A stretch of 64,000 nucleotides of DNA from positions 7,316,001 to 7,380,000 of the forward strand of contig NZ_CP049838.1 of the NCBI RefSeq assembly GCF_013085465.1, in the 5' to 3' direction. The first letter of the stretch is position 1. The number at the start of each line of letters is the position of its first letter. Origin of the DNA: Streptomyces asoensis (GTDB taxonomy: Bacteria; Actinomycetota; Actinomycetes; Streptomycetales; Streptomycetaceae). The notes under the pieces are model-generated. The model saw only the letters and a list, made by a program, of their open reading frames with translations. It searched no databases and was not told where the DNA came from. The position numbers and the translations under genes are program-made. This document shows, in pieces, positions 5,084 through 14,653 of this stretch.

Positions 5084-5180
5084 GGATACCGTCCTGGGAG
5101 CGTTCGCGGGGAGCGCGCGGCCGCGCACGAGGTGAGGTGCGCATCGGCGGCGCGCGCCGGTGGGAATGGGGGATGCGAAT

Positions 5181-5267
5181 TCAGCAGGACGGGCGACACA
5201 CGCAGCCCGCATAGCGGACGAGGTCCATATGGACCCTCCGCCACAGGCGCACATCGGTGTCGGTCAC
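5181..5267 (-). CDS. Cys-rich putative leader peptide upstream of cysteine dioxygenase
   Basis: A 28-codon ORF starting GTG and ending with YAGCVCRPSC, so three of the last seven residues are Cys and the terminal residue is Cys. It matches the actinobacterial putative leader peptide family found before sulfur-metabolism genes. A TTGACC-N17-TGTACT promoter places the likely transcription start at or next to the GTG, so the mRNA appears leaderless. An alternative 15-residue start is ATG 5228 with GGAGGG upstream. By analogy with Cys-codon leaderless ORFs of mycobacteria, ribosome stalling at the Cys codons may control the dioxygenase-rhodanese operon. The leader ends 97 nt before the dioxygenase GTG. 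Confidence 0.75.
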   Translation of the reverse strand: MTDTDVRLWRRVHMDLVRYAGCVCRPSC

Positions 5268-5458: not shown

Positions 5459-7081
5459 TCACTTGGCCGCGGAGCCCGCCGTGGCCCCCGCTTCGGACGG
5501 CTCCCGTGTCCCCGCAGGCCCGCCCACCGTCGCCTCCGCCGCCGCGTACAGATCGGCCGCGCGTACTCCGTCGAGCGCGGTGACCAGATGGCCGTCGGGC
5601 CGGATCAGCAGAACGGTGTGCGCGGCCGCGCCCGGATAACTCTCGGCCACCAGCAGCTCGGCCGGGCTCGGCAGGGCCGTCACCGCGGCGGCGAGCCGGG
5701 GCATGATCCCGGCGCCCACCCAGTGCCTGCGCTCCCACACGCCGGTGCCCGGCGCGATCAGCAGGACGAGCAGGGCACCGCGCCCCAGCCGGTCCCGCAG
5801 CCGTACGAACGAGCCGTCCTCCGCGGTCACGCGCACGTCCTCGACCGGCGCACCGGGAGGCGTGTCCACCGGCACCTCCGCCTCCAGATGCCGGGGCGCG
5901 AGCGGCGAACCGTCGTAGGTGCCCGGCGCGCCCAGCGGACCGCGGCCCAGGTGGCCGTCGGTGAGCAGCACGTCGTGACCGCGGGTCGTGCCGGGGACGT
6001 AGGCCCTTATGCCCGCGCCGCCGCGCAGCACCGGCAGTGCCTGGTCGGCGGCGCGCAGCCGGGCGGCGACGGCCGCGCGCCGCTCCGCCTGGTAGCTGTC
6101 GAGCAGCGCCTCGTGCGACCCGTGATGCCAGGCCAGGGCCAGCTTCCAGGCCAGGTTGTCGGCGTCCCGCAGGCCCTCGTCGAGGCCTTGGGTGCCGAAC
6201 GCGCCGAGCAGATGCGCGGCGTCCCCGGCGACGAAGACCCGCCCCACGCGCCAGCGGCGGGCCAGCCGGTGGTGCACGGTGTGGACGCCGGTGTCGAGCA
6301 GCTCGTAGGCGGGCGTGGAACCGCTGCTCCAGCCCGCCAGGGTCTCCCGGACACGGGCCACGAGCAGCTCGGGCGTGACGAGGTCCTTGCCGGGCGGCAG
6401 CAGCCAGTCCAGGCGCCAGACGCCGTCCGGCAGCGGGCGTCCGGTGACTTCCCCGGCGGAGGGACCGGACACCCGCCACGGCGGGGTCCGATGGAGCAAC
6501 GCCTGATCGGGCCACGGAAGTTCCGTGCGCAGCGCGGCCACGGCGTGTCGTTCCACCGCGGTACGGCCGGGAAAGCGGATGTCGAGGAGTTTGCGGACCG
6601 TGGAGCGCGGGCCGTCGCAGCCGATCAGATGGCTGCCACGCCACCACGTGCCCTGGGGGCCGCGCGTGTGGGCCGTGACGCCGGAAGGTTCCTGCTCGAT
6701 GCCGTCCAGGCGGCTGTCCACGGCGATCTTCACCAGCCGCTGGCCCGCGAGTGCGGCGCGCAGGATGCCCGTCAGCACATGCTGGGCGATGTGCAGGGGA
6801 GCGGGATCCGTCGCGTCGTCGAACCTGACCTCGCGCGTCACCTGCTTGCGCCGCATCGACCGCCATCCGGCCCAGTGGACCCCGGCCTCGTCGAGGGGCA
6901 CTCCGGTGAGCCGCTCGATGAGGGCGGCGGTGTCCTCGCGCAGGACGACGGTGCGCGCGAGCCGTGGTTCGTCCTTGCCGGGGCCCTCGTCGAGGATCAC
7001 GGACGGCACCTGCTGGCGCGCCAGCGCAAGGGCGAGCGTGAGCCCCACCGGCCCCGCTCCGACGATGATCACCGGGTCCAC
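5459..7081 (-). CDS. FAD-dependent aromatic-ring hydroxylase-type monooxygenase
   Basis: Class A flavoprotein monooxygenase of the PHBH/polyketide hydroxylase type, 540 residues, using NAD(P)H and O2 to hydroxylate an aromatic or polyketide-like substrate. The N-terminal dinucleotide fold is IIVGAGPVGLTLALALARQ (GxGxxG at about residues 8-13). The second FAD motif is FVAGDAAHLLGAFGTQGLDEGLRDADNLAWKL. The C-terminal thioredoxin-like domain of this family follows. GTG 7081 with AGGGGG upstream is the best start; the same frame continues upstream into transposase debris (7333-7609), which is not part of the gene. No biosynthetic cluster surrounds it, so the substrate is unknown. Confidence 0.85.
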   Translation of the reverse strand: MDPVIIVGAGPVGLTLALALARQQVPSVILDEGPGKDEPRLARTVVLREDTAALIERLTGVPLDEAGVHWAGWRSMRRKQVTREVRFDDATDPAPLHIAQHVLTGILRAALAGQRLVKIAVDSRLDGIEQEPSGVTAHTRGPQGTWWRGSHLIGCDGPRSTVRKLLDIRFPGRTAVERHAVAALRTELPWPDQALLHRTPPWRVSGPSAGEVTGRPLPDGVWRLDWLLPPGKDLVTPELLVARVRETLAGWSSGSTPAYELLDTGVHTVHHRLARRWRVGRVFVAGDAAHLLGAFGTQGLDEGLRDADNLAWKLALAWHHGSHEALLDSYQAERRAAVAARLRAADQALPVLRGGAGIRAYVPGTTRGHDVLLTDGHLGRGPLGAPGTYDGSPLAPRHLEAEVPVDTPPGAPVEDVRVTAEDGSFVRLRDRLGRGALLVLLIAPGTGVWERRHWVGAGIMPRLAAAVTALPSPAELLVAESYPGAAAHTVLLIRPDGHLVTALDGVRAADLYAAAEATVGGPAGTREPSEAGATAGSAAK

Positions 7082-7332
7082 GGCGTGCCGCCCCCTGCCC
7101 GCGACGGTGTCCTCAGGGACGTAAGGGAACAAGAGGTAGGAGCAGGGTGCACGATCACAGAACGTATGCAACTCATTGTCGCTGTTTGCGTCAAGTGACG
7201 GACGGACGTGGCGCCTGGAAGGATCTCCGCGTTGTTCACCTTTGCGCCAGTCGAGGGCTTTCAGTCGTGGCCTGCCCTCTTGGTCCTGCTCCCCTGGAGT
7301 GTTGCCCGGAGCGCCGATTCGAAGACCTGGAA

Positions 7333-8050
7333 CGTTCGAGCACGGCAGGGCTTGGACCATGTCGCTCAAGTGCTCGTGGCGACCGTGCCGAAGGGCGAGA
7401 GCCCGCCAGTTCCTCAGGTGAGCGATGCCGTGCTCGACGCGGATATGCCCTGAGGAGTGGGCCTTGCGCTGTGATGCGTGCGTTTCCTTCCACCAGGCGG
7501 GGGCGCTCTTCCTGGACTTGCGGTGCGGAGGTGTCACCACGTGTCCGCCGGTCGATGCGCCCAGGCCTTGGCAGCCGGCGTTTGCGAGGACTTCTCTGAA
7601 CGGGGCGTCGACAAGAAGCCTGGTCGGCCGAGCTGGCAGGGCTGGGTGATGTCCGCGCAACTGCCTGGCAGCACCGCGCCGGCGAAGAGAATCCGCCCCC
7701 CGGCGTCCGTCAGGATCATGGACCTCACGGCGTTCCGCCTGGTCTTGCCGGAGATGAACTCGTCCCGGTCCTTGCGGCCGACGGCTGGGCGGCGCACGCG
7801 GATCTCGGTGCCGTCGATGATTGCGGTCTGTCCGTCGGCGCCCAGGTGATCACGTCGGCCGGGGTATGCAGCCGAATGCCGGCGGCGATGGTGCAGCCAC
7901 GATGCGCCGGCAGCGGCCGCACGGACCGATCTTCAGCCATCACGTCTGGCCGTGACCCCGGGACGCGATACTCACAAACGATCAACTCGCGCGTCTCAAC
8001 CCCCATCATGCGCAGCTCAACGAGCCGCCCTTCCGCCGGGCCGCGGCCCA
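7333..8050 (-). pseudogene. Degraded IS5-family DDE transposase
   Basis: Three minus-strand frames together spell one transposase. Around 7842-7915 is GIRLHTPADVITW. Around 7615-7842, in another frame, is QTAIIDGTEIRVRRP then FISGKTRRNAVRSMILTDAGG and PGSCADITQ. Around 7333-7609, in a third frame, is FREVLANAGCQGLGA and GHIRVEHGIAHLRNWRAL. The catalytic Asp of IIDGTEI and Glu of RVEHGIAHL are recognisable. A shift of about 4 nt occurs near 7842 and another near 7615, so no intact product can be made. The N-terminal part is not recognisable. The remnant borders the accessory genes at 8101-9864. Confidence 0.85.
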
Positions 8051-8100
8051 CTGTGCACGAGCTCGTTGGCTGAACCGACGAGACCCCCGAAGGATTGAGG

Positions 8101-8730
8101 TCAGGCAGCGCTCTCGGTGGCCGCGATGCGAGCAAGCCATGCCACATGAGCGGCCTGGACACGCGTAGGGGCACCCAATTTCGAGCGTATGGCCCGGACG
8201 TGATCCTTTACTGTTTCCGGGCTGATGAAGAGGGTGCCGGCGATTTCCCGGTTCGACATACCTCGGCTGAGGAGGTGCAGAACCTCGTGTTCCCTGCGGC
8301 TCAAGCGGCATATTCTTTCGCGTGCAGATTCTTCCTGAGGCGTCATTACGCCATTTCTGAGGTACTCGCTGATCATCGATTCGGAGATCTCTGGCGAGAC
8401 GACACGGCAGCCGTTCGATATTGCTGGAATCGCCCAGGGAATGTGCCGTGCGGCGGTATCCCGGAGTAAGATCCCGGCTGCACCCATGGCTAGGATCTGG
8501 CGAACATCGCTGTCGGGAACTCGCTCTGCTAGTACAAGGATGGGAACCCTGATGCCGGAATTCGCGGCATTGTGCAGGAATTCAACCGACTCGCTGCCTT
8601 GGGTGTGAATCCTGATAATGATGTCTGGTTTCGCTTCTGCGGCGGTGACCGTAAGAAACCTCTGAGAGGTCAGTACGGCGTGGAGAGTGTCGTTCAGTAA
8701 GTTCTCTTCACCGCTGATCACAATTCTCAT
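8101..8730 (-). CDS. Orphan LuxR/NarL-type regulator with degenerate receiver and two TTA codons
   Basis: 209 residues. The C-terminal LuxR helix-turn-helix is intact (LSRREHEVLHLLSRGMSNREIAGTLFISPETVKDHVRAIRSKLGA, about residues 140-190). The N-terminal part follows a NarL receiver pattern, but where the phosphorylated Asp should be it reads PDIIIRIHTQGSE, and the conserved Lys is Arg (LLRDTA). It is therefore probably phosphorylation-independent. No kinase is adjacent. Leu codons at 8698-8700 and 8467-8469 are TTA, the rare codon read by the bldA tRNA, so translation is likely tied to development. Codon use is less GC-biased than in neighbours. ATG 8730 follows GGGGG. It may control the secreted-protein genes at 9149 and 9523. 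Confidence 0.8.
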   Translation of the reverse strand: MRIVISGEENLLNDTLHAVLTSQRFLTVTAAEAKPDIIIRIHTQGSESVEFLHNAANSGIRVPILVLAERVPDSDVRQILAMGAAGILLRDTAARHIPWAIPAISNGCRVVSPEISESMISEYLRNGVMTPQEESARERICRLSRREHEVLHLLSRGMSNREIAGTLFISPETVKDHVRAIRSKLGAPTRVQAAHVAWLARIAATESAA

Positions 8731-9148
8731 TTCGAACCCCCGGAAATGCTCCACTGGGCGCGGAGTCATGCCACTAGGTCACCTGGTCAGGGTTGCCTAT
8801 TTCCGATTATCCTTTCCTTGGCTTTGGTGTGACGTCAAGCGATTTCATTCTTCCCGTCGGAAGATTTGAGGTTTCCCTGAGGCCTGGTGATGTGCTCGGA
8901 GTCTTGGGGGTGCCGCTTTTGCGGTGAATAGCCGATTTGGGGGCAATGTGAGGAGAACCCCCCCGGAAAGGGGATGTTGGGGGACGCGTGAGTCGCATTG
9001 AATGGTGACCGGTTCGGCAAGGGGTCGAATCGAATGTACCGCGTTGCAGGACGTGGCGTTGTTGATCGCGATGAATGTCGGTCACCGCCGCAGGCGGCAC
9101 GGCACTGCAATTGAACAAACCGTGACTCATGGAATCGGGTGAAGAAAG
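8731..9148. other. Intergenic region between the orphan regulator and secreted-protein genes
   Basis: This 418-bp stretch is visibly less GC-rich than the rest of the window and holds no convincing gene. It must contain the divergent promoters for the regulator and the first secreted protein. I see a wide inverted repeat, GGTGACCG at 9004-9011 and CGGTCACC at 9079-9086, and two similar C-runs near 8735 and 8955. None can be assigned a role. Confidence 0.5.
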
Positions 9149-9493
9149 TTGCTAGTTGGTATCCGAGCTCGACGGGCTGTGACGACTGCGGCACTTGGAG
9201 TCCTCTTTGCCGGCGCGTTCGCGCTCCAGGCCGGGACATCCGCGTCAGCTTCAGAATCCGCGGCCGCAGGACGTCCCAGTGGTTGCCACTACGAGGTTGG
9301 CGGCTACTGGGGCTCGATCGCTCAATGCTCCGATGACAATGGCGGCTCGTACGCGGCCACTGTTGGGTGCAAGTTTCCGAACGGAAAGATCGTCGACTAC
9401 GACGGCCCTTGGAGGAAGGCAGGGAAGTCCATAGCGTACTGCCAGGGAGACTCCAAGGCCGTGTACGCGGGAATCTGGACCAAGGTCTCCTGA
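9149..9493 (+). CDS. Small secreted protein, four-cysteine family (copy 1)
   Basis: 114 residues with a Sec signal peptide (RARR, then AVTTAALGVLFAGAFALQAG, with a likely ASA-type cleavage site near residue 34). The mature part is about 80 residues with Cys at 46, 60, 74 and 98. It is a paralogue of the next gene: both share PSGC, a second Cys, NGG-x-Y-x-A-x-V-x-C, a Trp at residue 88, and G-x-S-I-x-x-C ending at residue 98. I do not recognise the family. Four conserved cysteines suggest two disulfides in an extracellular domain. The only in-frame start is TTG 9149, after GAAGAAAG, so the start is less certain than the body. Confidence 0.75.
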   Translation: MLVGIRARRAVTTAALGVLFAGAFALQAGTSASASESAAAGRPSGCHYEVGGYWGSIAQCSDDNGGSYAATVGCKFPNGKIVDYDGPWRKAGKSIAYCQGDSKAVYAGIWTKVS

Positions 9494-9522
9494 AGTAGGC
9501 CGGACCGATCGAGAAAGGGTCA

Positions 9523-9864
9523 GTGAAAATGAACAAGCTGTGGAAGGCGCAAGCCGCCGCCATGGGAGTGGTGGCGTGCTTCTCTCTCGGGCTCCAAGGT
9601 ACTGCCAATGCGGCGCCGGTAAGTGACGCATCCGTCATGGCTGCCCCGAGTGGATGTTACGACGGTAAGTACGACAACGGGTGGTATGTCGTTTGCACTA
9701 AAAGTAATGGCGGAAAGTATAGGGCGTGGGTGCGCTGCCTTGCTTTTGGCGGTGGCCCAGACGTTGAGCGTGATGCAGTGGTCTGGAAGTCCAGCGGGCA
9801 GTCCATCGTCTCCTGCCCACCGTTCACCCAGGTCAAGACCGGTGGTAAGTGGACAACGGGTTAA
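9523..9864 (+). CDS. Small secreted protein, four-cysteine family (copy 2)
   Basis: 113 residues with a Sec signal peptide ending near ANA (residues 28-30). Mature Cys residues are at 45, 58, 72 and 98, aligning with copy 1. Shared positions include PSGC, NGG, Trp88, Gly92, Ser94-Ile95 and Cys98; overall identity is low, so the duplication is old or fast-evolving. The start is GTG 9523 or ATG 9529; GAGAAAGGG lies just upstream. It lies 29 nt downstream of copy 1 on the same strand and is followed by a strong terminator, so the two probably form one transcript. Function is unknown. Confidence 0.8.
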   Translation: MKMNKLWKAQAAAMGVVACFSLGLQGTANAAPVSDASVMAAPSGCYDGKYDNGWYVVCTKSNGGKYRAWVRCLAFGGGPDVERDAVVWKSSGQSIVSCPPFTQVKTGGKWTTG

Positions 9865-9877
9865 CCTACTTCCGGGG

Positions 9878-9906
9878 ACGGCCCGCCGATTTCTTCGGCG
9901 GGCCGT
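9878..9906 (+). terminator. Strong terminator after the secreted-protein pair
   Basis: ACGGCCCGCCGA and TCGGCGGGCCGT form a perfect 12-bp stem with a TTTCT loop, starting 13 nt after the stop of copy 2 and followed by TTTCGG. Confidence 0.85.
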
Positions 9907-9960
9907 TTCGGCTGTCTGCCCTGATCGCAGGCAGGCTGAGGTCTGGCTGTGATGCCGAGC

Positions 9961-10116
9961 GGGCGCCGATGAGTTGGTCGAAGACGCCGCCGTTCACCAC
10001 GCTGCGAAATACCTGTGACAGTTTCCCGGCACGCGATGCTTTCGGACCGGATAGCGCCACGGGATCCCGGCACGGGCGCCATGCAGGATGGCGTCCATGA
10101 TCCGGCGCAGAATCTG
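9961..10116 (-). pseudogene. Fragment of an IS5-type transposase N-terminus
   Basis: On the minus strand the sequence reads QILRRIMDAILHGARAGIPWRY, then (after a small indel) HRYFAAW, then in another frame NGGVFDQLIGA. This matches the N-terminal domain (DUF4096 type) of IS5-group transposases, which typically reads RRIVDAVLY-x-TG-x-PWRDLP...DGVFDQL. The fragment is frameshifted and lacks the catalytic part. It forms the far border of the accessory islet and comes from a different IS subgroup than the remnant at 7333-8050. Confidence 0.7.
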
Positions 10117-10140
10117 CTGGGGCTGGGGCTGGGGCTGGGG
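10117..10140 (+). repeat. CTGGGG hexamer repeated four times
   Basis: Four perfect tandem copies of CTGGGG directly next to the transposase fragment. Possibly a replication-slippage product at the islet border. Confidence 0.8.
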
Positions 10141-10323
10141 AGGGTCCGGCGTCCAGACCCTCGTCTCCGCGCTTGGTGCGACGGCCGGCGATCCGTCCGA
10201 TGCCTACTGAGCCTGAACGGCCACACGGAAAGATCAGGGCTCTGGCAGGGCGGAGATGAAAAATGATGGGGTGACGCCATTGTTCGCGTCACCCCTCGTG
10301 CCGAACCCGAAGATCGGTCGAAC

Positions 10324-11235
10324 CTATTCCTTGATGCCGCCGCCCGGCTCGGGTGGGGCGTGGCCCACGGTCTCAAGGTCCTCGATCGCCTCCACTCCGA
10401 CCACCGCGCCCGTGCTCTTCTTGCTGCGGCGCAGCCTGCGTTCCAGCCAACTCGCGAAGCTCGTGAGGGTGAAGTTGATCGCAACGAAGATGACGGCCAC
10501 AACGGTAAAGCTGGCGATGGTGTTGGCGCCGTAGTACGAGCTCATTGGGCTCACTGCGGCGATCAGGTCGGGGAACGTGAGTACCGCGCCGCCGAGGGCG
10601 GTGTCCTTCACGATCACGACGAGCTGACTGACGATAGCCGGCAGCATTGCCGTGACTGCTTGAGGGAGCAGGATCGACGTCATGGTCTGGGTCTTGCGAA
10701 GGCCGATCGCCTGCGCCGCCTCGGTCTGGCCCTTGGGGAGGGAGAGGATGCCCGCGCGGACGATCTCCGCCAGTACTGAGGCGTTGTAGAGCACCAGGCC
10801 GGTGACAACCGCATACAGTGGGCGGTCGTCGGAACTGACGTCCGTGTACTCGGAGTACAGGGCCACACCGAAGATCATCAGGATCAATACTGGGATGGCG
10901 CGGAAGAACTCGACGATCGCGCCGGCCGGAATTCGGATCCATGTATGGTCCGAGAGGCGTGCGATCCCGAACACGGCGCCCAAAGGTAGCGCGAGGAGCA
11001 TGGACAGGGCTGCCGCGATCAGGGTGTTCTTCAGGCCGGGCAGAATATATGTGGTCCACGCCTCGGAGCCGGAGAAAAATGGCTCCCACTTCACCCACTC
11101 GAGCTGGCCCTTTTCGTCCAGGCTCTTGTACACCCACCACAGCACTGCGACGAGTACGGCCAGGAACAGGACCGTGAAGAGTGCATTGCGCCGCTTGGCC
11201 CGGGGTCCCGGGGCGTCATACAGGAGGGAGCTCAT
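10324..11235 (-). CDS. gluD: Glutamate ABC transporter permease GluD
   Basis: Amino-acid ABC permease of the HisM type, 303 residues, about five to six transmembrane helices after a short cytoplasmic N-terminus. The coupling (EAA) loop is seen in RAGILSLPKGQTEAAQAIGLRKTQTMTSILLPQA. It pairs with GluC to form the membrane channel. The ATG at 11235 overlaps the gluC stop (ATGA). A charged C-terminal tail follows the last helix. Gene order gluA-gluB-gluC-gluD matches the glutamate uptake operon known in Corynebacterium and Streptomyces; glutamate as substrate rests on that family knowledge. Confidence 0.93.
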   Translation of the reverse strand: MSSLLYDAPGPRAKRRNALFTVLFLAVLVAVLWWVYKSLDEKGQLEWVKWEPFFSGSEAWTTYILPGLKNTLIAAALSMLLALPLGAVFGIARLSDHTWIRIPAGAIVEFFRAIPVLILMIFGVALYSEYTDVSSDDRPLYAVVTGLVLYNASVLAEIVRAGILSLPKGQTEAAQAIGLRKTQTMTSILLPQAVTAMLPAIVSQLVVIVKDTALGGAVLTFPDLIAAVSPMSSYYGANTIASFTVVAVIFVAINFTLTSFASWLERRLRRSKKSTGAVVGVEAIEDLETVGHAPPEPGGGIKE

Positions 11236-11897
11236 CGCTTCACCGCTACCTTCTTGCCCACCCAGCCGAGAATCAAGCCGGTCGGCAGCGTCAGACACAA
11301 GAAGCCGAACGCGAATACCGCGGAGATCAGCAGGAGTTGTGCCTCGTTCTCAATCATTTCCTTCATGAGCAGGGCGGCTTCGGCGACACCGATTGCAGCG
11401 GCTACTGTGGTGTTCTTGGTCAAGGCGATCAGTACGTTGGTCAGCGGGCCGACCACCGAGCGGAAGGCCTGGGGCAGCACGATCAGTGTCAGGATCTGGG
11501 TGAAATTCAGCCCCACCGCGCGGGCCGCCTCCGCTTGGCCGACCGGCACGGTGTTGATGCCCGAGCGGATTGCCTCGCAGACGAACGCCGAGGTGTAGGC
11601 GATCAGGCCGAGCACGGCGAGCCGGAAGTTGATGCTGTCGAAGTCGTGGGCGCCGAGGCTGATGCCCAGGGTCTGGTTGAGCCCCAGCGAGGTGAACAGA
11701 ATGATCACCGTCAGTGGGATGTTCCGCACGATGTTCACGTAGGCGGCGCCGAAGCCGCGCATCAGGGGCACTGGGCCGACGCGCATGGCTGCCAGCAGGG
11801 TCCCCCAGAACAGGGAGCCGACGGCCGAGAGCAGCGTGAGCTGCACAGTCACCCAGAAGGCGCCCAACAGGTCGTAACCTTCAAGAAAGTCGAACAC
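11232..11897 (-). CDS. gluC: Glutamate ABC transporter permease GluC
   Basis: Second membrane subunit, 221 residues, of the HisM/GltK permease family. The transmembrane segments cover almost the whole length and the EAA loop is SGINTVPVGQAEAARAVGLNFTQILTLIVLPQAF. It overlaps gluD by 4 nt at its end and starts 77 nt after gluB, so all four glu genes form one minus-strand operon. Confidence 0.93.
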   Translation of the reverse strand: MFDFLEGYDLLGAFWVTVQLTLLSAVGSLFWGTLLAAMRVGPVPLMRGFGAAYVNIVRNIPLTVIILFTSLGLNQTLGISLGAHDFDSINFRLAVLGLIAYTSAFVCEAIRSGINTVPVGQAEAARAVGLNFTQILTLIVLPQAFRSVVGPLTNVLIALTKNTTVAAAIGVAEAALLMKEMIENEAQLLLISAVFAFGFLCLTLPTGLILGWVGKKVAVKR

Positions 11898-13761: not shown

Positions 13762-13966
13762 CACGTGTCGTAGCACTTGTGACCTGCGGGCGTATCGGGC
13801 GGATAACGGAAGCCGGGTGCAACCGGAACCCTCTTGACGGCGTCCTCGTCCATCAGCGTGACTGCCATGATGCACACACGCGTGTGCCCGCGTTTTTCCC
13901 GACGGAGAACCGAACGCCCGTTGTAGTGAGTCAGACCGTATGCCCGATGAACCGGAGGAGGCCGGC

Positions 13967-14653
13967 ATGAGACTGCTGCTCGTCGAGGACGACAACCACG
14001 TCGCCGCCGCCCTGTCCGCGGTCCTGAAGCGGCACGGTTTCGACGTCACCCACGCGCGCAGTGGCGAGGAAGCGCTCCAGGCGCTCGTCCCGGAGGGCCC
14101 CGGCTTCGGGGTCGTGCTGCTCGACCTGGGCCTTCCCGACCAGGACGGGTACGAGGTCTGCGGCAAGATCCGCAAGCGCACCGCCACGCCGGTGATCATG
14201 GTGACCGCCCGCTCCGACGTGCGCTCCCGCATCCACGGCCTCAACCTGGGGGCCGACGACTACGTGGTGAAGCCGTACGACACCGGGGAACTGCTCGCCC
14301 GTATCCACGCCGTCAGCCGCCGCACCGTCCACGAGGACCAGGAGGCCGGCGGGGAGGACGCGCTGCGCCTGGGCCCCGTGCACATCGAACTGCCCACCCG
14401 GCGCGTCACGGTGGACGGTTCGGTCGTCCAACTGACCCGCAAGGAGTTCGACCTGCTGGCGCTGCTCGCCCAGCGTCCCGGTGTGGTCTTCCGCCGGGAA
14501 CAGATCATCAGTGAGGTGTGGCGCACCAGCTGGGAGGGGACCGGGCGCACCCTGGAGGTGCACGTGGCCTCGCTGCGCGCCAAGCTGCGCATGCCCGCGC
14601 TGATCGAGACCGTACGCGGCGTCGGCTACCGGCTCGTCGCCCCGGGCGCATAG
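13967..14653 (+). CDS. OmpR-type response regulator
   Basis: 228 residues: receiver domain (about 1-115) with acidic pocket EDD at 7-9, phospho-acceptor D53 in LLDLGLPDQDG and Lys in DDYVVKPYD, then an OmpR winged-helix DNA-binding domain (LTRKEFDLLALLAQRPGVVFRREQI). ATG 13967 is preferred because GGAGGAGG lies just upstream; an in-frame ATG at 13940 is possible. The gene is followed 12 nt later by its likely partner histidine kinase. The neighbouring TAXI binding-protein gene converges on the kinase gene. Confidence 0.93.
   Translation: MRLLLVEDDNHVAAALSAVLKRHGFDVTHARSGEEALQALVPEGPGFGVVLLDLGLPDQDGYEVCGKIRKRTATPVIMVTARSDVRSRIHGLNLGADDYVVKPYDTGELLARIHAVSRRTVHEDQEAGGEDALRLGPVHIELPTRRVTVDGSVVQLTRKEFDLLALLAQRPGVVFRREQIISEVWRTSWEGTGRTLEVHVASLRAKLRMPALIETVRGVGYRLVAPGA

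Follow-up and report, generated by a model that had tools for sequence, protein, structure and literature searches.

A likely acquired Streptomyces cassette with its own regulator, a candidate operator and exchangeable genes for predicted secreted proteins

How does a LuxR/NarL-type regulator gene come to face two genes for small, unfamiliar secreted proteins at one place in a Streptomyces chromosome, and what might these proteins do? We addressed this question for Streptomyces asoensis in a window of 64,000 nucleotides (the whole stretch analysed, bases 7316001-7380000 within a single-contig chromosome of 10.04 Mb; coordinates below are those of the window). The regulator gene (8101-8730, minus strand; best start ATG 8730, with a longer frame starting at 8769) is separated by a divergent intergenic region (8731-9148) from secA, which encodes a predicted secreted four-cysteine protein of about 80 amino acids in its mature form (9149-9493, plus strand), and from its paralogue secB (9523-9864, plus strand; start GTG 9523 or ATG 9529). 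The strong terminator described in an earlier sequence-only reading of this DNA is confirmed as a GC-rich hairpin with a 12 bp inner stem (9878-9906, plus strand; −37.2 kcal/mol over a folded stretch of 66 nt, z −4.85), and a consensus scan for promoters and terminators was uninformative. Sequence comparison gives good support to a cassette, likely acquired, that exchanges its cargo of genes for predicted secreted proteins and has its own regulator and a candidate operator, while a bacteriocin-like role of secA and secB is a reasoned prediction. The reading we favour, at a probability of roughly 0.5, is that a regulator lacking the phosphorylatable aspartate faces a two-gene unit for secreted antibacterials of the lactococcin 972 fold, directed against the cell-wall machinery of competitors.

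The site was surveyed across 199 members of the genus with the two flanking genes as anchors, namely the FMO gene on the left (5462-7087, minus strand; matched at E≤1e-120 in 183 of the 199 genomes, with up to 92% identity outside its own genome) and a gluD-like permease gene on the right (10324-11241, minus strand; matched at E≤1e-40 in 199 of 199, some of these matches being a divergent second allele or other copies). We take the surroundings, from family resemblance, to be a recA-recX-rhodanese-cysteine dioxygenase-FMO-gluDCBA neighbourhood, FMO standing for an FAD-dependent monooxygenase-like protein. With 150 gluD and 150 FMO matches listed, FMO sites were surveyed in 150 of the 183 genomes with an FMO match; the FMO-gluD interval was empty in 143 of them and occupied in 7. 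Among 113 genomes with FMO and gluD adjacent in the match tables, 109 gaps measured 119-418 bp after correction for unaligned ends, the four larger ones being 1591, 2154, 3239 (the window's genome) and 10655 bp; in a second set of 38 loci with fetched DNA (L059, L063 and L089-L124, among them G160 and G041 of the first set), uncorrected gaps were 134-459 bp in 34 loci. A blastn search of 147 loci with positions 7120-8100 found that the conserved DNA upstream of FMO ends at query position 79-98 in all 63 matching loci, which places the left junction at 7198-7217, and the gluD-side DNA shared with locus L069 starts at the right junction (10268-10330; 83% identity over 63 bp), so that the inserted stretch is about 3 kb long.

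Because the conserved DNA on both sides breaks off around this stretch and the site is mostly empty in relatives, the cassette is likely acquired, as the sequence-only reading had proposed; conserved synteny across all relatives was not found. That reading had also described the region as less GC-rich than its surroundings and bounded by transposase debris, and the first statement holds mainly, the second only, for the left side. The GC content of about 55-61% is lower than on the left (mostly 66-77%), but the contrast is smaller with the right flank, which itself has only 61-67%. A DDE-type transposase remnant lies at 7645-7839 on the minus strand (tblastn with a protein of locus L062, 32% identity over 65 amino acids, E 3e-6); the query is DDE_Tnp_4 by Pfam (E 5e-15), and the window's own open reading frame over the remnant reaches only E 0.036, below the cut-off. 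In the rest of the first 20 kb, four transposase queries had no match below E 0.1; a search of 7100-10450 revealed no direct repeats flanking the cassette, and apart from this left-side remnant no mobility genes, intact ones included, were found there.

The distribution of the secreted family across the genus also places the cassette at a preferred site. Of 392 genus genomes, 16 had a match at E≤1e-6 to a profile built from 47 members, and an adjacent same-strand pair was present in 13 of these 16 (13 of 14 when only strong matches are counted); type A precedes type B in 12 of the 13 pairs, and G029 has the reverse order. Nine of the 16 copies sit in the FMO-gluD interval (a fragment only in G269, type B only in G227), and three more lie in the same neighbourhood: between rhodanese and recX in G157, about 2.5 kb beyond gluA in G307, and in G129 as a pair (L062:5205-12168) that lies between an FMO gene and another, partial FMO copy and has DDE transposases to its left and right, which suggests that it was inserted recently. 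The copies of G061, G152 and G331 had no anchor within the DNA fetched around them, the FMO-gluD gap of the first two being empty, and a weak profile match in G168 was not confirmed by tblastn. The likely acquired unit is thus not a random island. A linear plasmid of Streptomyces sp. NBC_00354 also carries an adjacent four-cysteine pair; the protein database yielded 80 relatives (E≤0.001, counting the window's own), and all those with an organism in the name are from Streptomyces except one, from Glycomyces artemisiae.

The seven occupied survey sites all contain small predicted secreted cysteine proteins, which fall into at least four sequence families. The four-cysteine family occupies four of them (the window, G029, G042 and G123); the G183 site holds an orthologue of the regulator with two different predicted secreted proteins, alt1 and alt2; the G160 site holds transposases and a 147-amino-acid predicted secreted protein with four cysteines after the signal part; and the G021 site holds a 178-amino-acid predicted secreted protein, also with four cysteines. 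Profile comparison revealed no homology of the four-cysteine family to alt1, alt2, lactococcin 972 or the G160 and G021 proteins, the last two being weakly linked to each other (hhalign 26%; BLASTP E 9e-4 among eight sequences). The regulator with alt1/alt2 recurs at the same site in S. albiflavescens, Streptomyces sp. MBT53, Streptomyces sp. HD, S. achromogenes, S. actinomycinicus and Streptomyces sp. SID4985; MBT53 is identical to G183 in the sequence of these genes, and in a scan of named genomes 14 of 20 loci proved to be distant regulators. One could regard all this as the ordinary debris of insertions at a hot spot near recA, where unrelated accessory genes with no common function gather, and the transposase remnant on the left together with the transposases in L062 and L089 (DDE and Mu-type families by Pfam) fits that picture. 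We consider it very improbable, since every occupied site of the survey carries predicted secreted cysteine proteins and since different species share the regulator, a palindrome described below and part of the promoter DNA.

The exchange of cargo is most directly visible in the intergenic DNA. Local alignment of the window's intergenic region with those of alt1/alt2 loci reached z scores of 41 (L069), 12.3 (L068) and 6.7 (L071) against dinucleotide shuffles, the homology extending up to about position 9037, whereas secA DNA gave no alignment to alt1 of L069 and L068 (z 2.8 and 0.3). Because the intergenic DNA is homologous while the cargo DNA is not, the cargo has changed behind a conserved regulator and promoter. 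When 26 regulators were placed on a maximum-likelihood tree, the two cargo labels were intermixed and needed three changes each, of which at least two per label are forced by well supported branches (the label of P0013 being taken from P0003, whose contig has the same length, 3074); label shuffles required as few changes in 38 of 500 rounds for alt and in 142 of 500 for four-cysteine, so that the tie between cargo and regulator phylogeny is a loose one.

The palindrome CCCC-N-GGGG was first seen in an alignment of four related loci and then met in five others. In the window it forms the candidate operator CCCCCC-GGAAA-GGGG at 8959-8973, singled out by its conservation as a pattern across regulator loci. 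With a spacer range fixed after the first alignments were seen, the strict pattern CCCC-N4-7-GGGG occurred in nine of nine regulator-cargo intergenics (L070, identical to L068, was left out), and in shuffled intergenics in a mean of 0.59 and a maximum of 4 of the nine (300 rounds). For five of the nine, alignment to the window's intergenic region is poor or absent (z 3.5 or less), and these five carry two copies each, spaced 27-30 bp in four of them and 95 bp in L146. None of 11 upstream regions of cargo lacking an intact regulator contained the pattern (400 bp each; copies in L062, L144, L145, L149 and L152 left out, and the L143 start estimated). In controls it occurred in 1 of 22 divergent intergenics, one of these controls being the DNA upstream of the G021 cargo and another, L143:8019, lying at the slot, and in 3 of 115 intergenics. 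A hand calculation for nine of nine against none of 11 gives 1 in 167,960, which is only a guide as the sequences are related. Genome-wide, the 16-mer at 8960-8975 had one exact occurrence and two more at one mismatch (a backward-pattern control gave none), and because of this rarity the regulator looks local, that is, it would act at its own cassette. Locus L143 carries a decayed regulator fragment (8100-8246) beside a four-cysteine pair, and its tested upstream region lacks the palindrome; this is consistent with a joint loss of regulator and operator.

The regulator itself has a clear GerE domain (E 7.8e-19, 67.5 bits against a cut-off of 23.5), to which end, the helix-turn-helix, its PADLOC matches are confined. 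Pfam reported no receiver domain in the remaining part; NarP/NarL models cover roughly residues 30-200 with scores far under their cut-offs, and the protein aligns with relatives P0047 and P0048, which carry PF00072. At the position of the phosphorylated aspartate the window has arginine, and no aspartate appears in any of the 29 rows with a residue there (serine 19, isoleucine 5, threonine 2, arginine, cysteine and alanine 1 each, and one gap, making 30 rows with the window; the alignment of 32 rows comprised the window and 31 chosen from 120 matches listed of 742, P0047 and P0048 being left out of the count). The term orphan, used in the sequence-only reading, means here that no kinase gene was seen beside the regulator; the nearest two-component gene noticed encodes an OmpR-type regulator with an ordinary receiver (13940-14653). 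The regulator probably responds to something other than phosphorylation. Every placeable orthologue sits at the slot (the window, L063, L068, L069, L071, L072, L073, L074, L146 and, as a decayed fragment, L143), a statement that covers the placeable ones, as others in the protein database could not be placed. In the partial text of PMC12632262 that we draw on, PapR6 and VmsT are atypical Streptomyces regulators of specific genes, and how receiver regulators without the aspartate are switched is called a mystery. The window's regulator resembles aspartate-less receiver regulators and these two in its NarL-type helix-turn-helix, its putative receiver-like part without the phosphorylated aspartate and the proposed action on one local target (nomenclature and both regulators as given in that source), and differs from them in being tied to secreted-protein cassettes at one site, with a palindromic candidate operator.

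Two TTA leucine codons, claimed for the regulator from the sequence alone, are indeed present on the minus strand, codon 11 at 8698-8700 (also TTA in the S. albiflavescens orthologue, L069) and codon 88 at 8467-8469. TTA codons occur in four of nine intact orthologues (codon 11 in the window and L069, codon 17 in L073 and codon 2 in L074), and since the other five lack them, bldA control is plausible here and recurrent but not general; the development-timed expression that had been suggested may thus apply to some strains and is no fixed property of the cassette. Small secreted proteins coat aerial hyphae in Streptomyces, and together with the TTA codons this could be taken to mean that secA and secB are developmental surface or matrix proteins, made as aerial hyphae form, and not weapons. 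We regard this as quite unlikely: the family is found in only 16 of 392 genomes and unrelated proteins take the same site elsewhere, which better fits a diversifying trait of competition.

What the proteins are is less readily read from their sequences. Their N-termini are signal-peptide-like by eye (basic, hydrophobic, then AXA), and a simple pattern finds the same in relatives. The tandem paralogy proposed earlier is borne out, with 34% identity between the mature proteins (E 1e-11 within a set of eight sequences), four cysteines in matching order (12/26/40/64 and 15/28/42/68, numbered along the pieces compared) and, in both, NGG, Trp88 and G-x-S-I-x-x-C; secretion is predicted. Across 23 chosen family members eleven columns are invariant (P43, C46, C60, G65, G66, A70, C74, W88, G92, S94 and C98). 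The family had not been recognised from the sequence, and this holds at that level: Pfam, NCBIfam, PADLOC and PHROGs gave no useful match and no relevant family, a viral fold library gave none at E≤0.001, and phages gave none to secB, the one of the two searched. A search of solved-structure sequences with the family profile returned three matches at E 0.67-1.9, which were taken as chance. Literature searches by title or the start of the abstract found no paper on either the cassette or the secreted family.

Structure models suggested a direction. Those of secA and secB both place 2lgn and 9hkj in the top two ranks, among 999 and 997 chains respectively, at least 1.6 Z units above the next row and with 60-65 residues aligned at 2.4-2.7 Å; these two were the only PDB sequences matched by a Streptomyces lactococcin-972-family protein, and the name Formosin D for 9hkj is taken from the PDB title and chain name. 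Both proteins are therefore predicted to fold like lactococcin 972, with which they would share small size, Sec secretion and a beta-sandwich (PF09683; 2lgn and Formosin D, 9hkj). They differ from that family in having four conserved cysteines, in occurring nearly always as paired paralogues, in showing no DUF1430/ABC (ATP-binding cassette) partner in the cassette and in lacking any sequence or profile match to it: none of the 23 members matched the PF09683 profile up to E 10 (HMMER filters drop most matches above 0.1), and hhalign of the 47 members against 13 Streptomyces PF09683 proteins gave a probability under 1%. In the portions of PMC9964109 and PMC11796350 consulted, lactococcin 972 binds lipid II and blocks septum formation, and its family, thought to be Sec-secreted, forms a beta-sandwich; an excerpt of PMC12345188 describes a family member only 18% identical to lactococcin 972, with a similar predicted structure, as an active bacteriocin. 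By this analogy, the likely target of the secA-secB pair is the envelope of Gram-positive competitors. Elsewhere in Streptomyces, we noted two true lactococcin-972-family genes in tandem, with starts 461 bp apart (G097:C76:5158-5816; L129, L140).

Two other functions were weighed against these data. The proteins could be secreted inhibitors or binders of an extracellular enzyme such as a protease, in which case the cassette would swap inhibitors and not bacteriocins; we hold this to be unlikely, as no inhibitor family appears among the Pfam or NCBIfam matches and the lactococcin-972-family rows top all other listed rows in both models. The adjacent pairing in 13 of the 14 strong-match genomes, the order A then B in 12 of 13 and the fact that no other immunity gene was seen in the cassette would suit a toxin with an extracellular antidote or decoy, one protein being each. 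This seems improbable given that the two are paralogues of the same predicted fold, each of which alone matches bacteriocins best, that both are predicted to be secreted and that the site in G227 yielded the B type alone. As for immunity of the producer, no DUF1430-type immunity gene or ABC transporter partner was seen among the cassette's open reading frames, and PF07242 (DUF1430) was not found in the window's genome at E≤0.01. Of the Streptomyces carriers of PF09683, 3 of 10 have a match to PF07242, below threshold.

In the favoured reading, then, the toxin-like character suspected from the sequence gains indirect support from the structural matches and from cargo exchange, and the steps can be set out as follows. 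In strains with TTA codons the regulator would be translated only when the bldA tRNA is present. Lacking the usual phosphorylation site, it may bind the palindrome about 175-190 bp upstream of secA and, as phylogenetic footprinting suggests, switch the secA-secB unit, probably as an activator. The two proteins are predicted to leave by the Sec route and to adopt a six-strand sandwich, probably with two disulfides; from the fold, their target on neighbouring Gram-positive cells might be lipid II or some other part of the envelope, and the two may work together as a two-component pair. A bolder version, which we put forward tentatively and think doubtful as a whole, is a weapon slot near recA in which a phosphorylation-independent regulator and a palindromic operator drive interchangeable, sequence-unrelated secreted pairs, one of them a disulfide-locked, two-component set of lactococcin-972-like lipid II binders that would form a new class. 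The slot recalls the pneumococcal blp locus, in the sections of PMC11796350 used here a fixed locus with bacteriocin and immunity content differing between strains; the Streptomyces slot differs in having an aspartate-less regulator and not pheromone control, and Sec-type cargo with no dedicated transporter seen in the cassette.

Several features were noted in the neighbouring genes. A cysteine-rich short frame (MCACGGGSIWTSSAMRAACVARPAE...; about 5180-5254, minus strand) lies upstream of the cysteine dioxygenase gene, is conserved in 8 of 13 loci examined, stands as a frame of its own in L069, L073, L146 and L125, and looks like a cysteine-responsive leader peptide. The DNA upstream of FMO (7120-7217), of which about 80-98 bp are conserved in the 63 matching loci with up to 94% identity, reads ...LHTFCDRAP on the minus strand, a possible second cysteine-containing leader. 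Furthermore, Streptomyces differ in which of two divergent gluC-gluD alleles, that of the window or that of L063, they carry at this place, and G041 (L090) has both.

If the favoured reading is correct, Streptomyces genomes would have a fixed place from which protein antibacterials could be harvested by synteny alone, whatever their sequence family, and the lactococcin-972-like fold would also take in proteins without any link to it by sequence search. The aspartate-less regulator, whose candidate operator is defined and which is linked in some strains to bldA timing, would furthermore offer a possible model for how such regulators are switched.
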